A stretch of DNA of 64,000 nucleotides from Rhodovastum atsumiense (GTDB lineage Bacteria > Pseudomonadota > Alphaproteobacteria > Acetobacterales > Acetobacteraceae): contig NZ_OW485601.1 of NCBI RefSeq assembly GCF_937425535.1, forward strand, positions 5,377,501 through 5,441,500, in the 5' to 3' direction. Positions 50,672-64,000 of the stretch are shown here, one piece after another. The translations under genes were made by a program, and so were the position numbers. The number at the start of each line of letters is the position of its first letter. Position 1 is the first letter of the stretch. The notes under the pieces were generated by a model that ran no database searches, was not told where the DNA came from, and was given only the letters and a program-made list of their open reading frames with translations.

Positions 50672-50737
50672 ATGAATGCTCCTGCTCCCGTGGCGGCGCG
50701 CAGCCCAGGCAGAATGCTCCCGGCGCCACGGCCATGA
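50672..50737 (+). CDS. Possible 21-codon leader ORF coupled to the rhodanese-like gene
   Basis: An ATG with a very strong ribosome site (GGAGGAGG) opens a 21-residue Pro/Ala/Arg-rich frame whose TGA overlaps the start ATG of the rhodanese-like gene (ATGA). The large gene has no good ribosome site of its own, so coupled translation is likely. Confidence 0.45.
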   Translation: MNAPAPVAARSPGRMLPAPRP

Positions 50738-52314
50738 GATCCATCGACGCCGCCACCCTGCGGGGCTGGATCACCGATCGCCGGGAACTGGCCATCCTGG
50801 ACGCACGGGAGGAAGGCGAATACGCCACCGGCCACCTGTTCTGGGCGGTGCCTTGCCCGTTGTCGCGCATGGAGATCCGCGCGCGGGCGCTGCTGCCCTC
50901 GCTCGCCACCCGCATCGTCTGCGTCGATGACGGACGGGAACTCGCCGTGCGCCTCGCCGGATGGCTGGAGAGCCTCGGCGCGGACGATGTGTCCGTGCTG
51001 GCGGGCGGCACGCCGGCCTGGCAGGCGGCGGGTTATCCGCTGTTCGCTGGCGTCAACCTGCCGTCCCGGGCCTTCGCCGCCTGGGTGGCGCGGCATGATG
51101 CCACCGAGGTCATCGCGGCGCCGGACCTCGCGCGCTGGCTGGAAACGCGCCACGACCTCGTGGTGCTGGACAGCCGCAGTCCCGAGGAATTCCGCCGCAG
51201 GGCGATCCCGACAGCGGTGAACGTGCCCGGGGGGGAGCTGGTCTACCGCATCGCCGACCTGGTGCCCGATCCGGACACGGTGGTCGTGGTCACTGCCGCG
51301 GCGCACACACGGGCAATCCTGGGGGCGGAGAGCCTGCGCCGGGCTGGCGTGCCCAACCGTGTGCTGGCACTGCGTGACGGCCTCATGGGCTGGGATCTGG
51401 CCGGCTTCGCGCTGGCGCAGGGCAGCGAGGCGCGCTTCCCGCCCGGCCGTCCCGCTTCCGCCGCGCTGGCGCTGGCGCGGGCGAAGGCATTTGCCGAGCA
51501 ATCGGGCGTCGGCGTGATCGGGCCGCTCGACCTGGCGCGGTTCGAGGAGGATCCCGGCCGCAGTTGCTATGTGCTGGACGTGCGCGACCCGGCCGAGTTC
51601 GCGGCGGGGCATCGTCCGGGCAGCCTGTCGGCGCCGGGCGGGCAACTGGTGCGGGCCACCGATGCCTGGATCGCGGTGCACAACGCCCGCATCGCGCTGA
51701 TCGACGACGACGGCGTGCGCGCCCGCATGGCGGCGGCCTGGCTGCGGCGGATGGGGCACCGCGACGTGTTCGTGGTGGAGGGCGGGCTGGACGAGGCCAC
51801 GGTGCGCGGTCCGGGCGCGATCGGCGTGCCGGAGCTGCAGGCGCGGGTGGATTCCATTGATGCCGACGCGCTGGCCGCCTGCGGCGATGCCACGGTGGTG
51901 GATCTGGCGCGCAGCGTCGATTTTCGCGAAGGCCATATTCCCGGCGCGCTGTGGGGGCTGCGCACCCGGCTGGATTTGCTGCAGGACCGGCTGATGATGG
52001 CGCGGCTGGTGGTGTTGACCTCGCCGGATGGGATGCTGGCGCGGCTGGCGGTGCCGGAGGCGCAGGGACTGACGGGTGCGCCGGTGCGCGTGCTGGAAGG
52101 CGGCACGGCGGCGTGGTCGAAGGCCGCCCTCAAGCTCGAGCGTGACCACGGCACGCCGTCCGACGTGGCCTGCATCGATGTCTGGCTGAGCCCCTGCGAC
52201 CGCAATGCCGGGGTGGCGGCGGCGATGCAGGAATTCCTGGAACAGGAGCGTGGCCTGGAGCGGGCGGCGGCACAGGACGGGACGGTGTCGTTCGGGCTTC
52301 CCGTGCCCGGGTGA
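50734..52314 (+). CDS. Four-domain rhodanese-like protein without catalytic cysteines
   Basis: A 526-residue protein of four tandem rhodanese-like domains (about 1-115, 120-240, 265-375, 385-500). Recognisable pieces are LDAREEGEYATGH, LDSRSPEEFRRR, LDVRDPAEFAAGH and LARSVDFREGH. In none of the four is the active-site loop cysteine present (the CxxG loops read VDDG, TAAAH, DDDG and SPDG). Sulfurtransferase activity is thus unlikely, and a binding or scaffolding role is inferred. Confidence 0.8.
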   Translation: MRSIDAATLRGWITDRRELAILDAREEGEYATGHLFWAVPCPLSRMEIRARALLPSLATRIVCVDDGRELAVRLAGWLESLGADDVSVLAGGTPAWQAAGYPLFAGVNLPSRAFAAWVARHDATEVIAAPDLARWLETRHDLVVLDSRSPEEFRRRAIPTAVNVPGGELVYRIADLVPDPDTVVVVTAAAHTRAILGAESLRRAGVPNRVLALRDGLMGWDLAGFALAQGSEARFPPGRPASAALALARAKAFAEQSGVGVIGPLDLARFEEDPGRSCYVLDVRDPAEFAAGHRPGSLSAPGGQLVRATDAWIAVHNARIALIDDDGVRARMAAAWLRRMGHRDVFVVEGGLDEATVRGPGAIGVPELQARVDSIDADALAACGDATVVDLARSVDFREGHIPGALWGLRTRLDLLQDRLMMARLVVLTSPDGMLARLAVPEAQGLTGAPVRVLEGGTAAWSKAALKLERDHGTPSDVACIDVWLSPCDRNAGVAAAMQEFLEQERGLERAAAQDGTVSFGLPVPG

Positions 52315-55388: not shown

Positions 55389-57245
55389 ATGGCATGGCAG
55401 CTTGCGCGCATGCGCCGATGGGCGGGCGGGGCGGCGCTGGTCCTGGCCTCGGCCACGATCCTCGCCTTTCTGCTGGTGCGTCCGCCATCCCCGCTCGCCG
55501 CCGCCGACCGGCTGTTCGACGCCGTGGCGTTCCGGCTGTTTGCCCCTCCGGAGCCGGCCGATCCGCGCGTTGTCATCCTCGCCATCACGCCGGAGACCCT
55601 GGCGGCCTTTCCCTATGTCGCGCCGATCGACCGCGGCTTCCTGGCCGGGCTGATCGACACGCTGGCCGGCGCCGGCGCCGCTGCCGTGGGGCTCGATGTG
55701 CTGTTCGACCGGCCGACCGAGCCGGAGAAGGACGCCGCGCTGCGCCAGGCGCTGGCCCGCCCCGACATCCCGGTGGTGGCGATCACGGTCGCGCCGGAGA
55801 CCGACCTACCGCCGGAGCAGCGGCGCTTCCTGGAGGGGTTCCTGGCGATGCGGCGCACGGCCCTCGCCAATCTCGGCCGTGACCGCTTCGACGACATGGT
55901 GCGCACCCATGTGCCGGTCCATCCCGCGACCGGCCAACTGAGCCTGCCGGCAAGCCTGGCCGCGGTCGTGGGGATGACGGTGCCCACCGCGCCGTTCCCG
56001 ATCCTCTGGCGGCCCGCCGGGACGCTGCCGGTCTATCCGGCCGAGGCCGCGGCGCTGCTGCCGCCGCACTGGCTCGCCGGGCGGGTGGTGCTGGTGGGCA
56101 GCATGATCCCGGGCATCGACGAGCACCGCACCCTGGCCTCCGCCTTCGGCCGGCCGAGCTTCGGGGTGGAAATCCATGCCGCGGTGCTGGCGCAGATGCT
56201 GGAAGGCCGTGCGGTGCCACCGGGGCCCTGCCCGGGTTGCGTCGCCACGCTCGCCGCCGCGACGCTGGGCACGGCGCTGGGGGGCATGCTCGCCGGTGCC
56301 GCCGCGGCGGCGGCCCTGACGCTGACGGTACTGTTGATTCCGGCGGCGGCGCTGGCCGCCGTCGCCGCCGGGCTGCCCGGCGTCTCCGTGGCCGCCCCCG
56401 TGCTGGCCTGCCTGCTCGCCGGGGCGCTCGCGCGCATCTGGCGCGGTCATGGCGAGCGGCGCGATCGGCGGACGCTGCGCGTGCTGTTCTCCCGCTTCGT
56501 CAGCGAGCCGGTGGTGGCGCAGATCCTCGCCCAGCGCGAGCTGTTCCTGGCCGGCGGCAGGCCGGTGCCGCAGCAACTGACCGCCACGGTGCTGTTCTGC
56601 GACGTGGCCGGCTTCACCTCGTTGTGCGAGCGCCTGCCGCCGGCGCCGCTGGTCGCCTGGCTCGATCGCTACATCGAGGCGATGGTGGCCGTCGTTGCCG
56701 CGCATGAGGGGGTGGTGTTGCGTTTCGTGGGCGACGGCATCCTGGCGGTGTTTGGGGCCCCGGTGCCGCGGCACGACGCCCCTGGCATTGCCACCGACGC
56801 GCGCAACGCGGTGCGCTGCGGGCTGGGCATGGAGGCGGAGATGGACCGGCTGAACGCGGCCTGGCGCGAGGCGGGGCTGCCGGCGGCGGGGCTGCGCGTG
56901 GGCATTCACACCGGTCCGCTGGTGGCCGGCAGCTTCGGCAGCGGCACGCACATGGAATTCTGCCTGCTCGGCGACACCGCCAACGTGGCGGCGCGGCTGG
57001 AGCAACTGGGCAAGCAGCAGGCGACCGGGCCATGCGGCTGCACCATCCTGGTGGGCGGGCCGACCTGGGAGCGTCTGGGCAAGGGCTTCGCCGGCCGCCC
57101 GGTGGGGGAGATCGCGCTGCGTGGCCGGCAGGCCGCCATTTCCGTCTGGCGGGTGGACCGCGCCGCGCAGGCGCAGGCGGAAGCGGAGGCGGCTACACTT
57201 CCGCTGCCGCGATGCTCTCCAGCATCTCCCGGTCGCGCAGGATGA
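55389..57245 (+). CDS. CHASE2-domain adenylate/guanylate cyclase
   Basis: A 618-residue membrane protein with an N-terminal helix, an extracytoplasmic CHASE2 sensor (about 30-270), hydrophobic helices (about 285-355) and a class III cyclase domain (about 380-600). Metal aspartates are in LFCDVAGFTS and FVGDGILAVFG, and the GDTANVAARLEQ helix carries the transition-state Asn/Arg. The product is probably cAMP. The 3' end overlaps the convergent Crp-type gene by 53 bp. Confidence 0.88.
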   Translation: MAWQLARMRRWAGGAALVLASATILAFLLVRPPSPLAAADRLFDAVAFRLFAPPEPADPRVVILAITPETLAAFPYVAPIDRGFLAGLIDTLAGAGAAAVGLDVLFDRPTEPEKDAALRQALARPDIPVVAITVAPETDLPPEQRRFLEGFLAMRRTALANLGRDRFDDMVRTHVPVHPATGQLSLPASLAAVVGMTVPTAPFPILWRPAGTLPVYPAEAAALLPPHWLAGRVVLVGSMIPGIDEHRTLASAFGRPSFGVEIHAAVLAQMLEGRAVPPGPCPGCVATLAAATLGTALGGMLAGAAAAAALTLTVLLIPAAALAAVAAGLPGVSVAAPVLACLLAGALARIWRGHGERRDRRTLRVLFSRFVSEPVVAQILAQRELFLAGGRPVPQQLTATVLFCDVAGFTSLCERLPPAPLVAWLDRYIEAMVAVVAAHEGVVLRFVGDGILAVFGAPVPRHDAPGIATDARNAVRCGLGMEAEMDRLNAAWREAGLPAAGLRVGIHTGPLVAGSFGSGTHMEFCLLGDTANVAARLEQLGKQQATGPCGCTILVGGPTWERLGKGFAGRPVGEIALRGRQAAISVWRVDRAAQAQAEAEAATLPLPRCSPASPGRAG

Positions 57246-57894
57246 TGATGCCGGAGGTGACGGCGATGGTGCCGTCCTCCCGCCACTCGCTCAGCAGCCG
57301 GTTGATGCTCTCGCGGGAGATGCCGATCAGGCTGCCGATCTGTTGCTGCGACAGCCGGATCTCGATGCGCATCCCGCCCGCGACCTCGCGGCCGAAGCTG
57401 TCGGCCAGGCGCAGCAGGCCGCGCGCCAGCCGCGACGGCGCCTCGCGGAACAACGTGTCTTCCAGGTGCTCGCTGGTCTGGCGCAGGCGCTGGCACAGCA
57501 CCGCGAACAGCCGGGCCATCAACTCCGGATTGCCGGCCAGGAACGGCATGAAGCGGTCGCGCTGCAGCACCAGCAATTCGGTCGGTTCCAGTGCCACGGC
57601 GTCGGCGGTGCGGGGCTGCCCGTCCAGCAGCGCGATCTCGCCGAACACGCCGCCGCGATCGATGATGTTCAGCACCAGTTCGCGACCTTCGGTGGAATAG
57701 CTGCAGATCTTCACCCGCCCGCGCAACACCGCCATCATGCTGTTGCCCGGATCGCCTTTCTGGAAGATGACCTCGCCGCCGCCACAGGTGATCACCGCCG
57801 CCCCGGTGGCCAGCCGCCGCAGTTCGTCCGCGTTCAGGTGCTTCAGCAGGAAATGACCGGCAAGGACGGCCTCGCGGCCGGCATGGGTCTGCAT
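57193..57894 (-). CDS. Crp/Fnr family transcriptional regulator
   Basis: A 233-residue regulator. The cyclic-nucleotide domain has the phosphate-binding cassette GEIALLDGQPRTADAV with Arg95-Thr96, compatible with cAMP binding. The C-terminal winged helix has LSQQQIGSLIGISRESINR. No N-terminal FNR-type cysteine cluster is present. The start MQTHAG was chosen because it begins the conserved region. Being tail-to-tail with a cyclase makes cAMP the likely ligand. Confidence 0.88.
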   Translation of the reverse strand: MQTHAGREAVLAGHFLLKHLNADELRRLATGAAVITCGGGEVIFQKGDPGNSMMAVLRGRVKICSYSTEGRELVLNIIDRGGVFGEIALLDGQPRTADAVALEPTELLVLQRDRFMPFLAGNPELMARLFAVLCQRLRQTSEHLEDTLFREAPSRLARGLLRLADSFGREVAGGMRIEIRLSQQQIGSLIGISRESINRLLSEWREDGTIAVTSGIIILRDREMLESIAAAEV

Positions 57895-57999
57895 CCGTGT
57901 TCCCCTCGGGTCGCGCCCGCGGCGCTGGCGACATCGCGCTGGCCGGGGATCTTCCTGGAAGATCAGCGCGAACAACAGCGCGTATTTGGGCGAACAGTC

Positions 58000-58014
58000 G
58001 TCGTGTCGCACAAC
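58000..58014. promoter_or_regulatory. Near-palindrome between the Crp-type and caspase-like genes
   Basis: GTCGTG-TCG-CACAAC is a 15-bp near-palindrome (one mismatch) in the divergent promoter region. It resembles a Crp-type operator only loosely, and its regulator is unknown. Confidence 0.3.
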
Positions 58015-58173: not shown

Positions 58174-60510
58174 ATGCCCCGACGCCTTCAGGGCTGCCTG
58201 TCTGGTTTCGTCCTGGCCGTGCTGCTGGCCTGCGCCGTCCTGGCCTCGCCCTGGCCGGCCGCCGCGCAGCAGCAGGGGCGGATCGCCCTGGTGATCGGCA
58301 TCGGCACCTATCAGAACGCGCCGCCACTCACCAATCCGGTCAACGATGCGCGCGACATCGGCGACGCGTTGCGCCGGCTGAACTTCGATGTCGAGGAGCT
58401 GTACGATCCGGACTTCCGTACGCTGACGCGCGGGCTGCGGGCTTTCGGCATCCGTGCCCAGCGCGCCGAGGCCGCCGTGGTGTACTACGCCGGCCACGGC
58501 GTGCAGGTGGACCACGAGAACTACCTGCTTCCCGCCGATGCGCGGCTCGAGCGTGAACGCGACCTGCTGTACGAGGCGCTGCCGCTGTCGCTGATGCTCG
58601 GCGAGGTGGCGCAGGCCGGCCGGATCGGCATCGTGCTGCTCGATGCCTGCCGCAACAATCCCTTCGTCGAGCGCATTGCCCGCTCGATGCCGCTGGCCGG
58701 CCGTGCCATTGCCACGCCGACGGGGCTGGCGCGCGTCGACGACGTGCCGCGCAACACCATGGTGATGATGGCCACCCGCGCCGATACCATCGCCGAGGAC
58801 GGCACCGCCGGCCACAGCCCCTTCGCCGCGGCCTTGCTCGCGCATTTGCAGATCCCCGGGCTGGAACTCAGCCTGTTCTTCCGCAGCGTGCGCGACGCGG
58901 TGCTGAAGGCGACCGCCAACCGGCAGGAGCCCTATGCCTTTTCCTCGCTCGGGGCCGAGCCGTTCTACTTCTATCCGCGCCCGCCCAACCGTCCGCCCGT
59001 GATCGGCGCCATCCGCCCGCTGGAGGTGCCGGACAGCGCCGGCCCGACGCCGCTCGGCCTGCCGCGCCCGGTCGATCCCGACCAGGACCCGCTGAGCGTG
59101 CGGGTGATCGGCCTGCCGCGCAGCGGCGAGGTGCGGGTGGAAGGGCGCATCGTTGCTTCCGGCGAGGTGTTCTCGGTCGATCGCTTCATGACGGCGACCT
59201 TCAAGCCGGATGGCCGGGCGTTTGGCCCGGTCGGCACGCTTGACATCCTGGTGGAGGACGGGCGCGGCGGCGATCTCACCGCCAGCCTGCCGGTCGCGGT
59301 GCGGCCCGCCAACCGGCCCCCGGCGGTGGAGGCCCCGCGCACGCTGCGGCTTGCCCCCGCCGCGCTCGGCATCGGCGTGCCGAACGATCCCGACGGCGAC
59401 ACGCTGACCGTTACCATCAAGGCGCTGCCGCGCGGCGTGGTGCGGCTCGGCGGCACGGTGCTGAAGCCCGGCGACCGGCTGCGGCCGGAGGATCTGGCGC
59501 GGCTGAGCGTGATGCCGGAGGCCGGGCTGACCGGCAAGGCCGGCAGCCTGCGCTATCTCGTCGAGGATGGCCGCGGTGGGGCCGCCGAAGGCCGCCTCGA
59601 CATCGAGGTCGCCGAGGCACCGGAAGTCACGCCGAATGCCCCCGCTACGCCGGCAACAACGCAGCCGGCCCCGCCACCCGCCGCGCCGGTCGCCTCCGTC
59701 CCCGAGGCGCATCGGTCGGCCGGGCAACTGGCCCTGGCCCAGCCGCCGCCGGCCGCACCGGACCGCGCCGCTCCGGCCCCGGCTTCCGGCCCGGCGGCCG
59801 CCACGGCCTTCCAGGACTGCGCCGATTGCCCGTGGCTGCTGCATGTTCCGGAGGGCAGCTTTACCATGGGCCAGGGAGCCCGCGAGCCGGAGGCATCGCC
59901 GGCGCACCGCGTGCAACTGCGCGGCTTCGCGCTTGGCCAGTTCCCGGTGACCATCGGTGAGTGGAAGCGCTGCCAGGCCGATCAGGGCTGCCGCTTCCTG
60001 CCGCGCATGGCGGAGGCGGACGAATACGTGCCGGTGCACAACCTGAGCTGGGACGACACCTGGCAATACCTGTCCTGGCTGTCGCGCAAGACGGGCCGGA
60101 AATACCGGCTGCCGAGCGAGGCGGAATGGGAATACGCCGCGCGGGCCGGCACCACCACGCGCTACTGGTGGGGCAACGAGGTCGGCGTGTCCCTGGCCAA
60201 TTGCAGCGATTGCGGCGGACGGCAGGAGACTCATGCGCCGCTGCCGGTCACGAGCTTCCGGCCGAACGGCTTCGGGCTCTCCGGAATGCTGGGTGGGGTG
60301 GCGCAGTGGACGGCGGATTGCTGGGTCCCGAACTACCGGGGCGCGCCGGCGGACGGCAGTGCGCGCGAGGTCGCCGGTTGCCTCAAGCGGGTGCTGCGGG
60401 GCGGCTCCTTCCGCTCCGGCCGTGACGACATCACCGTGACCGCGCGCGGCAACTACGATGCGTCGGTGCGCTACATCGCCAACGGCTTCCGCGTGGCCCG
60501 CGACGAATGA
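58174..60510 (+). CDS. Secreted caspase-like protein with a C-terminal FGE-sulfatase-like domain
   Basis: A 778-residue exported protein. A signal peptide (about 1-32) precedes a caspase-fold peptidase (C14) domain with the dyad His108 (YYAGHGVQ) and Cys159 (LLDACRNNP). Two beta-rich tandem segments follow (about 270-490), each with DPDxDxL and VEDGRGG motifs as in cadherin-like repeats. After a Pro/Ala linker comes a formylglycine-generating-enzyme-like domain (about 550-778; YRLPSEAEWEYAARAG, VLRGGSFRSG). The ATG follows TGGAGG. It is divergent from the Crp-type gene. Confidence 0.88.
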   Translation: MPRRLQGCLSGFVLAVLLACAVLASPWPAAAQQQGRIALVIGIGTYQNAPPLTNPVNDARDIGDALRRLNFDVEELYDPDFRTLTRGLRAFGIRAQRAEAAVVYYAGHGVQVDHENYLLPADARLERERDLLYEALPLSLMLGEVAQAGRIGIVLLDACRNNPFVERIARSMPLAGRAIATPTGLARVDDVPRNTMVMMATRADTIAEDGTAGHSPFAAALLAHLQIPGLELSLFFRSVRDAVLKATANRQEPYAFSSLGAEPFYFYPRPPNRPPVIGAIRPLEVPDSAGPTPLGLPRPVDPDQDPLSVRVIGLPRSGEVRVEGRIVASGEVFSVDRFMTATFKPDGRAFGPVGTLDILVEDGRGGDLTASLPVAVRPANRPPAVEAPRTLRLAPAALGIGVPNDPDGDTLTVTIKALPRGVVRLGGTVLKPGDRLRPEDLARLSVMPEAGLTGKAGSLRYLVEDGRGGAAEGRLDIEVAEAPEVTPNAPATPATTQPAPPPAAPVASVPEAHRSAGQLALAQPPPAAPDRAAPAPASGPAAATAFQDCADCPWLLHVPEGSFTMGQGAREPEASPAHRVQLRGFALGQFPVTIGEWKRCQADQGCRFLPRMAEADEYVPVHNLSWDDTWQYLSWLSRKTGRKYRLPSEAEWEYAARAGTTTRYWWGNEVGVSLANCSDCGGRQETHAPLPVTSFRPNGFGLSGMLGGVAQWTADCWVPNYRGAPADGSAREVAGCLKRVLRGGSFRSGRDDITVTARGNYDASVRYIANGFRVARDE

Positions 60511-60644
60511 GGGGGCTGGTTTTGTGGGGTGTCGTCCGGGGCTCTCGGCACACCGCGATACGCTACGGGGCCGTCCACACAAGACTATCACCCAGATGCC
60601 CACATAGCGCCAGACTTCAATAAGACATCACTTGGTACAATAAT

Positions 60645-61796
60645 TCAAACGCTGATCTTTTCACCAACGCCGCATATTTGCTTCTGAAAGATTGTCAGCG
60701 CCTTTGCTACGGCCTGATCCATATTGTAATATTGATAGTTGCCAAGCCGTCCGCAAAAAATGACATCTGGTGCTTCCTTGGCTGCGAAATCACGATAACG
60801 GTTATAGAGATTTTGGTTATCATCCTGCGGGATCGGATAATAAGGAAGGCTAATGCCTGGTGTGTAGGCAGTGGGATATTCAATGGCGACTTTGGTCTTT
60901 CCTTCCCACTCATGGGTCATATGGCCCATTTCGGTGATTCTGGTAAAGGCGTGTTCATTTGGATAATTGACCTGAGCCACAGGCTGATGCCTGGATTGCG
61001 CATAAGTCTGGAACACGAAATCCAGGCTGCGGTAGGGAAGGGCTCCGAATTCGCAGCGGAAAAATTCATCAATTGGGCCAGTGAACACGATTTTTTTGTA
61101 AAATGAGCTATCCCGAACCGATGCCCAATCCGTGCCCAGTTCAACGTCGATGTTCTCATGGCTCAAGATTCGTTTGACCATATTGGTATAGCCGCCGACG
61201 GGCATGCGCTGGAAAGAATCGTTAAAGTAACGATCGTCATAACTGATATGAACGGGAACACGAGCCGTTACCGAGGGAGCCAGCATCTCAGGCGGCATGC
61301 CCCATTGCTTCAGGGTGTAACCAAAAAAAACATTATCAAATACAAATTGCGCTAAATCGCGCAATTCCCCTTCCGTGTTCTTCATCATGGACAGGATCGG
61401 CACCTTCGCCCCATAGCCGTAACGCCGTATCAGTGCCTCCTGCAGCCGCCCCGCTCTAGCGGCATCGAAACAAATCTGCAGCGATATCAAGTTGAAAGGA
61501 ATGGGAACCAGTCGACCATTGATCATACCTCGCACCCGGTGCTCGTAATCGTACCATTCTGTGAATCGAGAAAGATACGATACGACCATTTCAGAGTTTG
61601 TATGGAATATGTGCGGGCCATAATGGTGGTACAGAATACCATCGTCATCCCGGCCATCAAAAATATTGCCGGCTGGATGCGAACGACGATCGATCACGAG
61701 GACTTTCTTGTCCAGTACCGAAGCCAGTCGCTCGGCGATGACGGTCCCGGTCAATCCTGCGCCGACCACCAGCCAATCATATTTTTTCGCGGTCAT
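60645..61796 (-). CDS. glf: UDP-galactopyranose mutase
   Basis: A 383-residue FAD enzyme. The dinucleotide loop is VVGAGLTGTVIAERLA, followed by YGPHIFHTN. RVPVHISYDDRYFND and the final GRLGNYQYYNMDQ are strongly conserved in Glf. It converts UDP-galactopyranose to UDP-galactofuranose for surface glycans. Composition is lower in GC than most of the window. The start MTAKKYDW has CGGAGC upstream; a TTG 21 bases earlier is possible. Confidence 0.95.
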   Translation of the reverse strand: MTAKKYDWLVVGAGLTGTVIAERLASVLDKKVLVIDRRSHPAGNIFDGRDDDGILYHHYGPHIFHTNSEMVVSYLSRFTEWYDYEHRVRGMINGRLVPIPFNLISLQICFDAARAGRLQEALIRRYGYGAKVPILSMMKNTEGELRDLAQFVFDNVFFGYTLKQWGMPPEMLAPSVTARVPVHISYDDRYFNDSFQRMPVGGYTNMVKRILSHENIDVELGTDWASVRDSSFYKKIVFTGPIDEFFRCEFGALPYRSLDFVFQTYAQSRHQPVAQVNYPNEHAFTRITEMGHMTHEWEGKTKVAIEYPTAYTPGISLPYYPIPQDDNQNLYNRYRDFAAKEAPDVIFCGRLGNYQYYNMDQAVAKALTIFQKQICGVGEKISV

Positions 61797-61931
61797 CGCG
61801 ATGCTCCGATTTGCCAAAGAAAAATTGGGAATGCATCATGCGCTGTACATTCTCTGGCCGATGCCAGTGAACACAACAACATGCTGCTGCAGTACGGGCG
61901 CCCTTCTGCGTCCAGCGCCGAAGCAAGGCCG

Positions 61932-62951
61932 TCAGTCCTGGAAAACTTCACCAATATGCAGTTGGGCCAAGTCCTGGCCGTCGATGTAGGTGTTCCAGGC
62001 TGTCTGAACCATGTACGTAATGTCTTTGATCTCGGCAGTAAATCCAAGCACCTCACGTGCCCGGGCAGGGTCGGCGAACAGAACCGCCGGATCGCCGGGG
62101 CGACGAGGGGCAAGTCTGCGCGGAAGCGGCCGGCCAGTCACTCGCTCTACCGCCCTGATGATTTCCATCACCGACGTGGGTTGCCCTGTGCCTAGATTGA
62201 GGCGGCAATTTTTGCCACCTTTGAGCAAGTATTGTACAGCCTGAATGTGGGCCCTGGCCAGATCATTGACATGGATGTAGTCACGAATGCACGTGCCATC
62301 GGGCGTGTCGTAATCATCACCGAACACCTCAAGATGCGGGATCTGCCCGGTTACCGCCATGAATGCACGCGGGATCAGGTGGAATTCGGGGTCATGCCAC
62401 TCGCCGATCTCACCGTCCGGATCACTGCCGCAAGCATTGAAATAGCGTAACGCCGCATACTGAAACCCATATGCACTGGCATAATCCTCAAGGATCTGCT
62501 CAATCATCCACTTTGTGCGGCCATAGGGGTTGACGGGTGCCTGAGGCTCGGCTTCCCGAATAGGGCTGGTCTTCGGTTCCCCATAAGTGGCGCATGTACT
62601 GGAAAACACCATGGTCCGCAGATCGGTCCGCCGCATGGCTTCCAGTAAAGAAAGCGTGCCACTAACGTTATTAGTGTAATATTTCCCTGGGTCACGGACG
62701 GATTCACCGACATAGGCGAAAGCAGCGAAATGGATCACCGCGATCGGCCGGTACACGGCAAGGGCACGGTCAAGGGAATCGCCGTCGCCAATGTCACCGA
62801 CGACGAGAGGTCCCCATCTGACGGCTTTTTCATGGCCGAGCGCCAAATTGTCGAACGCCACAGGAATATAATTGGCTTTTGCCAGGGCCTTGCAGGCGTG
62901 ACTGCCAATATAGCCCGCACCCCCGGTTACCAGGACGTGGCGTCGTTCCAT
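61932..62951 (-). CDS. galE: UDP-glucose 4-epimerase
   Basis: A 339-residue short-chain dehydrogenase-type epimerase. GGAGYIGSHA is the NAD loop and the catalytic pair is Tyr143/Lys147 (NPYGRTK). It supplies UDP-galactose, which the next gene (glf) would use. The two are 135 bp apart on the same strand. Confidence 0.95.
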   Translation of the reverse strand: MERRHVLVTGGAGYIGSHACKALAKANYIPVAFDNLALGHEKAVRWGPLVVGDIGDGDSLDRALAVYRPIAVIHFAAFAYVGESVRDPGKYYTNNVSGTLSLLEAMRRTDLRTMVFSSTCATYGEPKTSPIREAEPQAPVNPYGRTKWMIEQILEDYASAYGFQYAALRYFNACGSDPDGEIGEWHDPEFHLIPRAFMAVTGQIPHLEVFGDDYDTPDGTCIRDYIHVNDLARAHIQAVQYLLKGGKNCRLNLGTGQPTSVMEIIRAVERVTGRPLPRRLAPRRPGDPAVLFADPARAREVLGFTAEIKDITYMVQTAWNTYIDGQDLAQLHIGEVFQD

Positions 62952-63158
62952 GTATTTTTCTCCGATGGAAATATTTCTGGTGGAATTGCTTAAAATAATA
63001 TCAGAATGACAAATTATCAGAGATTCAGCAAAATCTGATGTATCATATTCAATAGTGCAGCATCATAGATTTTGATGGAACCGGAATATTCCGGAGTGCT
63101 TCTGGTGAACTTCGGGGCGGGCCGCCTGGTTGCTCCGACCCGCCTCCGGCATCGATAA

Positions 63159-64000
63159 TTACGACGAAAGGTATTCCGTGACCTGAAGAATGCGCTGGTC
63201 CCATGCGTGCAGGGAATTCGTTCTTTTCAGTCCTTCCAATGCGATTTCTTCAAGTCTTCCGTGGTGCTCCGCGACAACGTCGGCAATATCATCGCCATTC
63301 TGTGCATAGCACAGGCAGGCTTCCGCATGGGGCAAAGCGGAAGTGGCGAAGCGATTGTGCTGGGTCAAGGAAACAGCTCCCGCCACCGCCGTATTGAACA
63401 CCCGATCGTGCACGCCGAAATCCCAATTGGGATCCACGTTGAGACCGAGGCGCGAACGTCGGAAGATCTCATGCTGATCTTCGTATTTTCGTGAGCCATG
63501 AATGACAAGACCGGGGATGTCACCGGCCAACTGATCCCATCCGGCGCCGAACGCATTGATCTTGTGACCGGAGAGCTTCCGGACAATCTGCAGGCGCCGG
63601 TAACGCTTGATCAAAGAATCTACGTCGACGCTGAGCTTCTGCCAACGCAGATCAAACAAAACATCCTCTGCCTTCAGATTGAACTCTTTCATCAGTTGCA
63701 GAGTCACGTTCCCGCTGGTCGGATTATTCAGAATCTCATTCACGACTGCTATCAGAGTTTCCAGAGAAACCATGCTGCTGTCGTAGCTGCGGAAGCTCTC
63801 TTCCACGGTCTCACGGATATGTTGGGCCGAGAGTTCCCTGCCGACATTGCCGAAAATGGAGATTTCCAGGTCACGCTCGGCCCAGGGGCGATCGCAGAGG
63901 TGAGGGGGCATCGCGCCGAACGGAAGGAACATTGTACTGACAGGCTTGCCGCGGCGCCGTGCCGCTTCACTCAACAGAGATTGATAATCCGCGTCGGGCA
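63159..64000 (-). CDS. Glycosyltransferase-like protein, 5' end cut by the window
   Basis: The frame is open to the right edge of the window, so the N-terminus is missing; about 280 C-terminal residues are seen. A late DPNWDFGVHDRVFNTAVAGA stretch resembles the C-terminal sugar-nucleotide binding part of GT-B glycosyltransferases (the DUF3880/Glyco_trans_1_2 type). No further specificity can be read. With glf and galE nearby it probably works in surface polysaccharide synthesis. Confidence 0.6.
   Translation of the reverse strand, partial: PDADYQSLLSEAARRRGKPVSTMFLPFGAMPPHLCDRPWAERDLEISIFGNVGRELSAQHIRETVEESFRSYDSSMVSLETLIAVVNEILNNPTSGNVTLQLMKEFNLKAEDVLFDLRWQKLSVDVDSLIKRYRRLQIVRKLSGHKINAFGAGWDQLAGDIPGLVIHGSRKYEDQHEIFRRSRLGLNVDPNWDFGVHDRVFNTAVAGAVSLTQHNRFATSALPHAEACLCYAQNGDDIADVVAEHHGRLEEIALEGLKRTNSLHAWDQRILQVTEYLSS

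Follow-up and report, generated by a model that had tools for sequence, protein, structure and literature searches.

Proteins in which a caspase domain is joined to an FGE-sulfatase domain are already known in print, and a survey of prokaryotic metacaspases counted such fusions in 33 of 671 sequences (PMC3501461). The authors of that survey speculated on formylglycine chemistry, for which the cysteine pair is missing in the protein described here; the word "cadherin" is absent from its main text, and the sections cited here name no HfaB-like lipoprotein. A second point of comparison is the export of surface fibres, as in the holdfast-anchor proteins HfaA, HfaB and HfaD of Caulobacter and the curli of E. 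coli (CsgG/CsgA). HfaA, HfaB and HfaD have a surface role; HfaB is said to resemble CsgG, and HfaA to resemble curlin and to need HfaB in order to be located at the surface (PMC6707917). Among the matches listed in our search of the open literature, outside which subscription papers lie, no report joined caspases with CsgG/HfaB-like export. Relatives of the locus analysed here appear to bring these two themes together. The locus lies in a stretch of 64,000 nucleotides from Rhodovastum atsumiense (contig NZ_OW485601.1), hereafter the window, and has the following features.

55410 to 57245, plus strand: CHASE2 sensor / adenylate-guanylate cyclase-type protein, convergent with the Crp gene
57193 to 57894, minus strand: Crp-type regulator of the cluster, 233 residues (Pfam, relatives' alignments, coding score)
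58174 to 60510, plus strand: gene for the predicted exported caspase / cadherin-like / FGE-like protein, an open reading frame of 778 residues
58174 to 58272, plus strand: hydrophobic N-terminal export segment, residues 1-33 (from the sequence; in all nine aligned orthologues)
58279 to 58950, plus strand: Peptidase_C14 (caspase) domain, residues 36-259 (Pfam, 104.8 bits, cut-off 21.4)
58495 to 58497, plus strand: catalytic His, H108, invariant in 9/9
58648 to 58650, plus strand: catalytic Cys, C159, invariant in 9/9
59020 to 59613, plus strand: two cadherin-like beta-sandwich domains, residues about 283-380 and 389-480 (Big_9, structure model, Foldseek)
59620 to 59808, plus strand: variable Pro/Ala-rich linker, residues 483-545 (alignment, low pLDDT)
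59836 to 60501, plus strand: FGE-like domain, residues 555-776 (nearest solved structure PvdO; FGE cysteine pair absent)

An earlier note on this DNA had proposed that 58174-60510 encodes a single exported chain joining these modules, and the predicted fusion is borne out by Pfam, by alignment and by the hydrophobic N-terminus. The caspase domain (PF00656) and the FGE-sulfatase domain (159.9 bits, cut-off 23.3) each score above the threshold of their Pfam family, in the latter case a fold family, and a hydrophobic segment opens every one of the nine full-length proteins that we aligned (the window protein, L033-L037 and L039-L041). The two cadherin-like segments of that note differ in their support. 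One is recognized directly by Big_9 at residues 403-477 (37.6 bits, cut-off 23.6), with Cadherin_5 at 20.4 bits falling under its cut-off of 26.5; the second has no Pfam match in the window protein and is indicated by a well-modelled beta-rich stretch at residues 281-480 (block pLDDT 70-90), by Foldseek matches to protocadherin repeats, and by orthologue L034, in which Big_9 scores two stretches. Because the whole-chain model is poor (mean pLDDT 53.3), the low TM-scores of the Foldseek matches are expected, and it is chiefly the cadherin-like part of the model that we relied on.

The earlier note had also described the His-Cys dyad as intact, and this holds in the alignment: H108 and C159 are unchanged in all nine full-length proteins. 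Two acidic residues, D58 and D157, are likewise invariant (9/9) and align with Asp residues of the MALT1 paracaspase, a eukaryotic immune-signalling protein that, among solved structures, comes closest to the caspase domain in sequence and also appears among the top Foldseek matches. In MALT1 we take these residues to form the S1 pocket that accepts Arg at P1, so that the window caspase is predicted to cut after Arg or Lys. The domain here differs from MALT1 in that it is predicted to be exported. As far as sequence can tell, then, the window protein is a caspase-fold protease of the orthocaspase/paracaspase type, with predicted activity.

Whether the C-terminal domain keeps the cysteines of FGE, a question raised in the earlier note, is answered in the negative. 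Alignment to SUMF1 (2aft, a Cys-to-Ser mutant) places S748 at the first FGE cysteine site, and ungapped extension past the printed alignment places I753 at the second. These are the positions that in FGE hold the copper-binding active-site pair; S748 and I753 are found in 9/9 proteins and neither position holds Cys. Formylglycine-generating activity was rejected on this ground. The domain does contain eight invariant cysteines (549, 552, 600, 606, 677, 680, 716 and 736), and its best solved relative is Pseudomonas PvdO (E 1.7e-32), an FGE-like protein that NCBIfam names dihydropyoverdine dehydrogenase and with which it shares a DCxDCP motif near the N-terminus and, further on, the cysteines of DCW...C. 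It differs from PvdO in being fused to a caspase and in scoring 135.4 bits where the equivalog cut-off is 500 (NF051459). PorK/GldK and a variable protein of T. denticola were also among the solved-structure matches, and in the nine-protein alignment the C-terminal residues are strongly conserved rather than diversified.

Comparison of orthologous loci gives the caspase-FGE gene a setting. Thirteen such loci, largely from related genera and hence not independent events, were readable on their upstream side, and in ten of them (L033-L038, L040, L041, L053 and L087) a gene for a lipoprotein of about 500 residues lies immediately upstream on the same strand, with 4 nt shared between the two genes in L033 and L087, among others; the window, L039 and L052 lack the lipoprotein gene at that position. 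DUF4399 genes follow downstream in all 12 loci readable there (in this genome, beyond an insert), usually as a pair and singly in L087; one of those in L035 matches Pfam at E 2.2e-36. Genes for curlin-like repeat proteins occur in 7 of the 13 stretches (L033, L035, L037, L038, L041, L053 and L087), and OmpA-type and DUF4384-type genes recur near the caspase orthologues. The full cluster thus comprises a CHASE2 cyclase, Crp, curlin-like repeat proteins, an OmpA-type protein, the lipoprotein, the caspase, DUF4399 genes and a DUF4384 protein, and most of this set lies within about 14 kb in L087, which belongs to a different family of the class. Several records were set aside in these counts: L007, L042 and L057 are one contig that ends upstream of a partial gene; L004 and L051 duplicate L037, L005 duplicates L052 and L006 duplicates L053; and L038, whose contig stops within the gene, does not enter the DUF4399 count. 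In one table, overlapping ORFs masked the lipoproteins of L035 and L040 together with some Crp and repeat genes, all of which were identified in other locus comparisons.

The lipoprotein resembles HfaB at a distance. Seven of eight lipoproteins match the NCBIfam HfaB model at E ≤0.1 (best 4.1e-9), and that of L033 scores 23.3 bits against a cut-off of 300; the same protein has a CsgG match under its cut-off (13.6 bits against 20.8, E 0.041), a weak peptidoglycan-binding match (E 0.032) and a DUF4384 domain well above threshold (73.5 bits, cut-off 27). A cysteine, C27, follows a hydrophobic segment and is invariant (8/8) in each of two alignments. The lipoprotein profile retrieved no solved structure at E ≤10, and the structure model was poor (mean pLDDT 51.9). 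Among the repeat proteins, six of the seven examined carry units of the form GGxNxNxAxGxxSxAxQ spaced 33-36 residues apart, L087 being an exception with looser repeats; the three that were scanned had no Pfam curlin match. The motif GRG between repeats is enriched in five of the seven (shuffle p <0.05) and not in L035 or L087, for which reason we kept it only as a hint of a cut site. Taken with the Hfa literature, the weak HfaB and CsgG matches and the curlin-like repeats lead us to liken the cluster to a curli or holdfast-anchor exporter, and the relatives' cluster looks like one in its working, at scores below the HfaB and CsgG family cut-offs. The likeness lies in an HfaB-resembling lipoprotein near secreted curlin-like repeat proteins. 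The cluster differs from the Hfa and curli systems in the DUF4384 domain added to its lipoprotein and in the presence of the caspase, the DUF4399 genes, Crp and the CHASE2 cyclase.

We compared this association with other caspase loci and other lipoprotein loci of the class. Eighteen other caspase loci (L069-L086), a non-random choice with unequal flanks drawn from 12 genomes and including five loci from G107, gave no hit to the lipoprotein profile at E ≤0.01; the same profile does detect the protein in L067 and L068, two loci chosen for carrying it and therefore not counted as controls. Among 385 sampled genomes of the class, eight have a long lipoprotein match (at least 320 profile positions), G413, with two short lipoprotein pieces and its caspases on other contigs, being left out. 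A caspase lies within 10 kb of the lipoprotein in four of the eight (G424, G166, G093 and G072), at an estimated chance adjacency of about 1% per locus for genomes with one to three caspases. This genome (G000), G417 and G368 have the lipoprotein with no caspase within 10 kb, and G303 has the lipoprotein and no caspase at all. Caspase-FGE proteins are present in G424 (L087) and G166 (L090). The caspases of G072 and G093 gave no match to the FGE profile, so that the recurring element there is the caspase and not the fusion. In eight further loci with the DUF4384 part only (L093-L100), a caspase was found in one, L100. A general association of caspases with CsgG was also considered from L055 (6844-8124), where a caspase paralogue is preceded by a lipoprotein-like gene that appears CsgG-like by eye; as a single sequence it gave a probability of 0.1% against the cluster-lipoprotein profile and had no Pfam match, and the case was therefore not used as support.

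The divergent Crp-type gene that the earlier note set beside the caspase gene is real, and its product has a DNA-binding HTH domain (Pfam). Its likely start is 57894 rather than 58113: three of five relatives match the long ORF no earlier than its residue 80, residue 74 being the ATG at 57894, the other two align from residues 57 and 70, and the coding score also places the start at 57894. The gene overlaps the 3' end of the CHASE2/cyclase gene by 53 bases. Its link to the caspase gene extends beyond this genome, as Crp and the cyclase both lie near the caspase orthologue in seven relatives' loci (L033-L037, L053 and L087); L039 has the cyclase alone, without Crp, and neither was found in the stretches of L041 and L052.

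The near-palindrome at 58000-58014, which that note placed between the two genes, did not hold up as a control site. It is self-complementary at 10 of 15 positions, and 494 of 500 shuffled versions of the intergenic region contained a 15-mer with at least 10, so that we rejected it as a Crp site. The best match to the CRP consensus between the caspase and Crp genes is 6/10, a value reached by 99% of shuffles. Upstream of the lipoprotein, a match at 9 of 10 positions was found in 9 of 14 regions scanned, or 9 of the 12 from relatives (L033, L035, L037, L038, L040, L041, L053, L087 and L068), where about 0.1 regions would be expected from shuffles that approximately keep dinucleotides; since several of the loci are related, these are not independent events, and the L087, L088 and L068 slices, whose limits were set by eye, include some coding sequence. 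The window, the second locus of this genome (L050), L034, L036 and L088 had no 9/10 match, and the regions between Crp and the repeat genes of L033, L035 and L037 had no CRP consensus (best 6/10). The sites upstream of the relatives' lipoprotein suggest that the window Crp may have regulated the caspase protein ancestrally.

In this genome the cluster has come apart. A second locus at 3.914-3.931 Mb, at a distance of 1.5 Mb from that of the window, carries the lipoprotein, the repeat genes, an OmpA and a DUF4384 gene, and another Crp (BLASTP identity to the window Crp 70%); tblastn (E ≤1) found no remnant in the window of the lipoprotein or of two repeat-type proteins. A Crp tree gave no resolved placement of the window Crp or of the L050 Crp. 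Downstream of the caspase gene is an AT-rich block of about 5 kb, from 60500 to about 65500 in window coordinates, with a GC content of 0.47-0.55 against about 0.65-0.75 around it; it holds glf (Pfam) and three genes that by eye resemble galE and other sugar genes. Past it are the two DUF4399 genes and a DUF4384-type gene cut down to 249 residues, compared with 382 in L037. With the lipoprotein and repeat genes elsewhere and an insert downstream, the window locus thus holds a portion of a cluster that has been both split and interrupted. The caspase protein itself remains 64-65% identical to its orthologues, with the dyad, the acidic residues and the domain order kept.

We propose that the protein is an envelope protease that assists a surface-fibre exporter under CRP control, a reading that, taken whole, we give about an even chance of being right; that the orthologues belong to an envelope cluster is much surer than what the caspase cuts. 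The CHASE2 cyclase would sense an envelope or extracellular cue and make cAMP or cGMP, and Crp would then turn the cluster on. The repeat proteins would be exported or anchored by the lipoprotein to form a surface fibre. The caspase, cleaving after Arg or Lys, may mature, trim or clear a protein that is exported or resides in the envelope, while the cadherin-like and FGE/C-type-lectin-like domains would act as binding modules that hold the caspase in place. We regard the caspase as an accessory part because in some genomes the lipoprotein occurs with no caspase nearby, or with none at all. The cluster of HfaB/CsgG-like lipoprotein and curlin-like repeats is accordingly named here as a candidate setting for the output of the peptidase. 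A narrower version, in which the caspase is the processing protease of the fibre exporter and cuts curlin-like subunits or anchors at an HfaB/CsgG-like pore, seems to us rather unlikely; it can be likened to the type IX secretion system, in which PorU is a caspase-fold sortase and PorK contributes FGE-fold ring proteins.

Other readings of the locus draw on the same evidence. The splitting of the locus, its interruption by the AT-rich insert, the shortening of the adjacent DUF4384-type copy and the lack of a CRP consensus upstream of the caspase gene would all be expected if the caspase-FGE gene had become detached from the fibre cluster here and now worked alone or on another envelope target. 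We think this unlikely, given the retention of the catalytic and acidic residues and of the domain order at that level of identity to orthologues, and the persistence of other cluster parts elsewhere in the genome. The FGE-like domain could instead carry out redox chemistry on a periplasmic target, as an enzyme of the FGE/PvdO kind, with the caspase processing that target as well. Its FGE-sulfatase score and its match to PvdO fit such a pairing, but S748 and I753 replace the cysteine pair in every aligned protein, the PvdO model stays far below its cut-off, FGE folds also have non-enzymatic uses, and PorK/GldK and the T. denticola variable protein are among the matches. Although coupled proteolysis and modification have been speculated for such fusions (PMC3501461), we consider an enzyme pair quite improbable here.

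The usual proposal for bacterial caspase homologues is a part in cell death (PMC3501461, PMC7475262), and an orthocaspase-type domain with an intact dyad could serve as a stress executioner that becomes active on damage and helps to dismantle the cell. The export segment predicted at the start of the protein and the envelope and regulatory character of its conserved neighbours argue against this, and we hold it to be distinctly doubtful. A role in conflict or defence is more doubtful still, and very unlikely in our judgement, whether as an FGE/C-type-lectin-like sensor coupled to a caspase effector, as in retroelement-diversified targets, or as a Pycsar-like cyclase/Crp system. Proposed systems of that sort use FGE folds for sensing and caspase-type peptidases for the effector step (PMC10907252), and PADLOC models match both the window protein (caspase, 2.9e-8) and the cyclase (PycC, 1.2e-23, covering the cyclase domain). 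However, the whole genome has no match to the reverse transcriptase family PF00078, the C-terminal residues are highly conserved in orthologues rather than diversified, the protein carries a putative export segment, Crp has a DNA-binding HTH domain in place of the toxic effector of Pycsar, and the cluster is conserved across families; with no reverse transcriptase found and the C-terminus conserved, we rejected the diversity-generating retroelement (DGR) and defence readings.

The role that we prefer is thus that of an envelope protease beside a surface-fibre exporter. Because the relatives keep this gene in a conserved cluster that resembles such an exporter, the caspase is more likely to act in the service of the cell surface than in cell death. 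What bacterial caspases do in nature has mostly been guessed at in terms of cell death, and if the processing-protease version were true, it would give bacteria a constructive cell-surface role for a caspase under cyclic-nucleotide control. With its identifiable candidate substrates, the cluster makes a role in envelope maintenance or in the processing of surface fibres directly testable in Roseicella or Dankookia relatives.

The caspase gene (window 58174-60510), which encodes the exported caspase/cadherin-like/FGE-like protein, is preceded in the window by the genes for a CHASE2 cyclase (55410-57245, + strand) and a Crp-type regulator (57193-57894, - strand), which are convergent with a 53-base overlap, and this convergent pair is retained in several relatives. 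The perfect palindrome GATCTTCCTGGAAGATC was observed at window 57948-57964, roughly 54 bases 5' of the start of Crp; its inner 15-mer scores 14, a score that 14 of 500 shuffles reached. Elsewhere in the window, the protein encoded at 50734-52314 contains four rhodanese stretches (Pfam 9.9e-45).

Other stretches of the R. atsumiense genome also encode caspase and FGE-type proteins. A second caspase (L055:6844-8124) comes immediately after a lipoprotein-like gene (L055:8131-9135), for which no relationship was detectable to the HfaB/CsgG-like lipoprotein encoded just upstream of the caspase gene in relatives. A stand-alone FGE-type protein of the genome (L054:7309-8247) shares 45% identity with the C-terminal domain of the window's caspase protein. 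Among relatives, the caspase-FGE gene at L053:4503-6934 is broken into two overlapping ORFs, reflecting either a sequencing error or a true break. At L056:6748-7656, a partial caspase domain is fused to a peptidoglycan-binding domain, next to genes that resemble type VI secretion baseplate genes.

Downstream, the caspase gene is separated from its conserved DUF4399 neighbours by one feature:

Window 60540-64000, extending by genome position to roughly 65500 (L103:1001-6000, in a stretch running past the window end): AT-rich block

The DUF4384-type gene adjoining the window locus (L103:7833-8582) is truncated, at 249 residues versus 382 in the relative's locus L037, and the copy at the second R. 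atsumiense locus (3.914-3.931 Mb) has 379. GC content in the block is 0.47-0.55, compared with about 0.65-0.75 in its surroundings, and it carries glf together with three more genes that resemble surface-sugar genes. The block between the caspase and DUF4399 genes is likely a foreign insertion.
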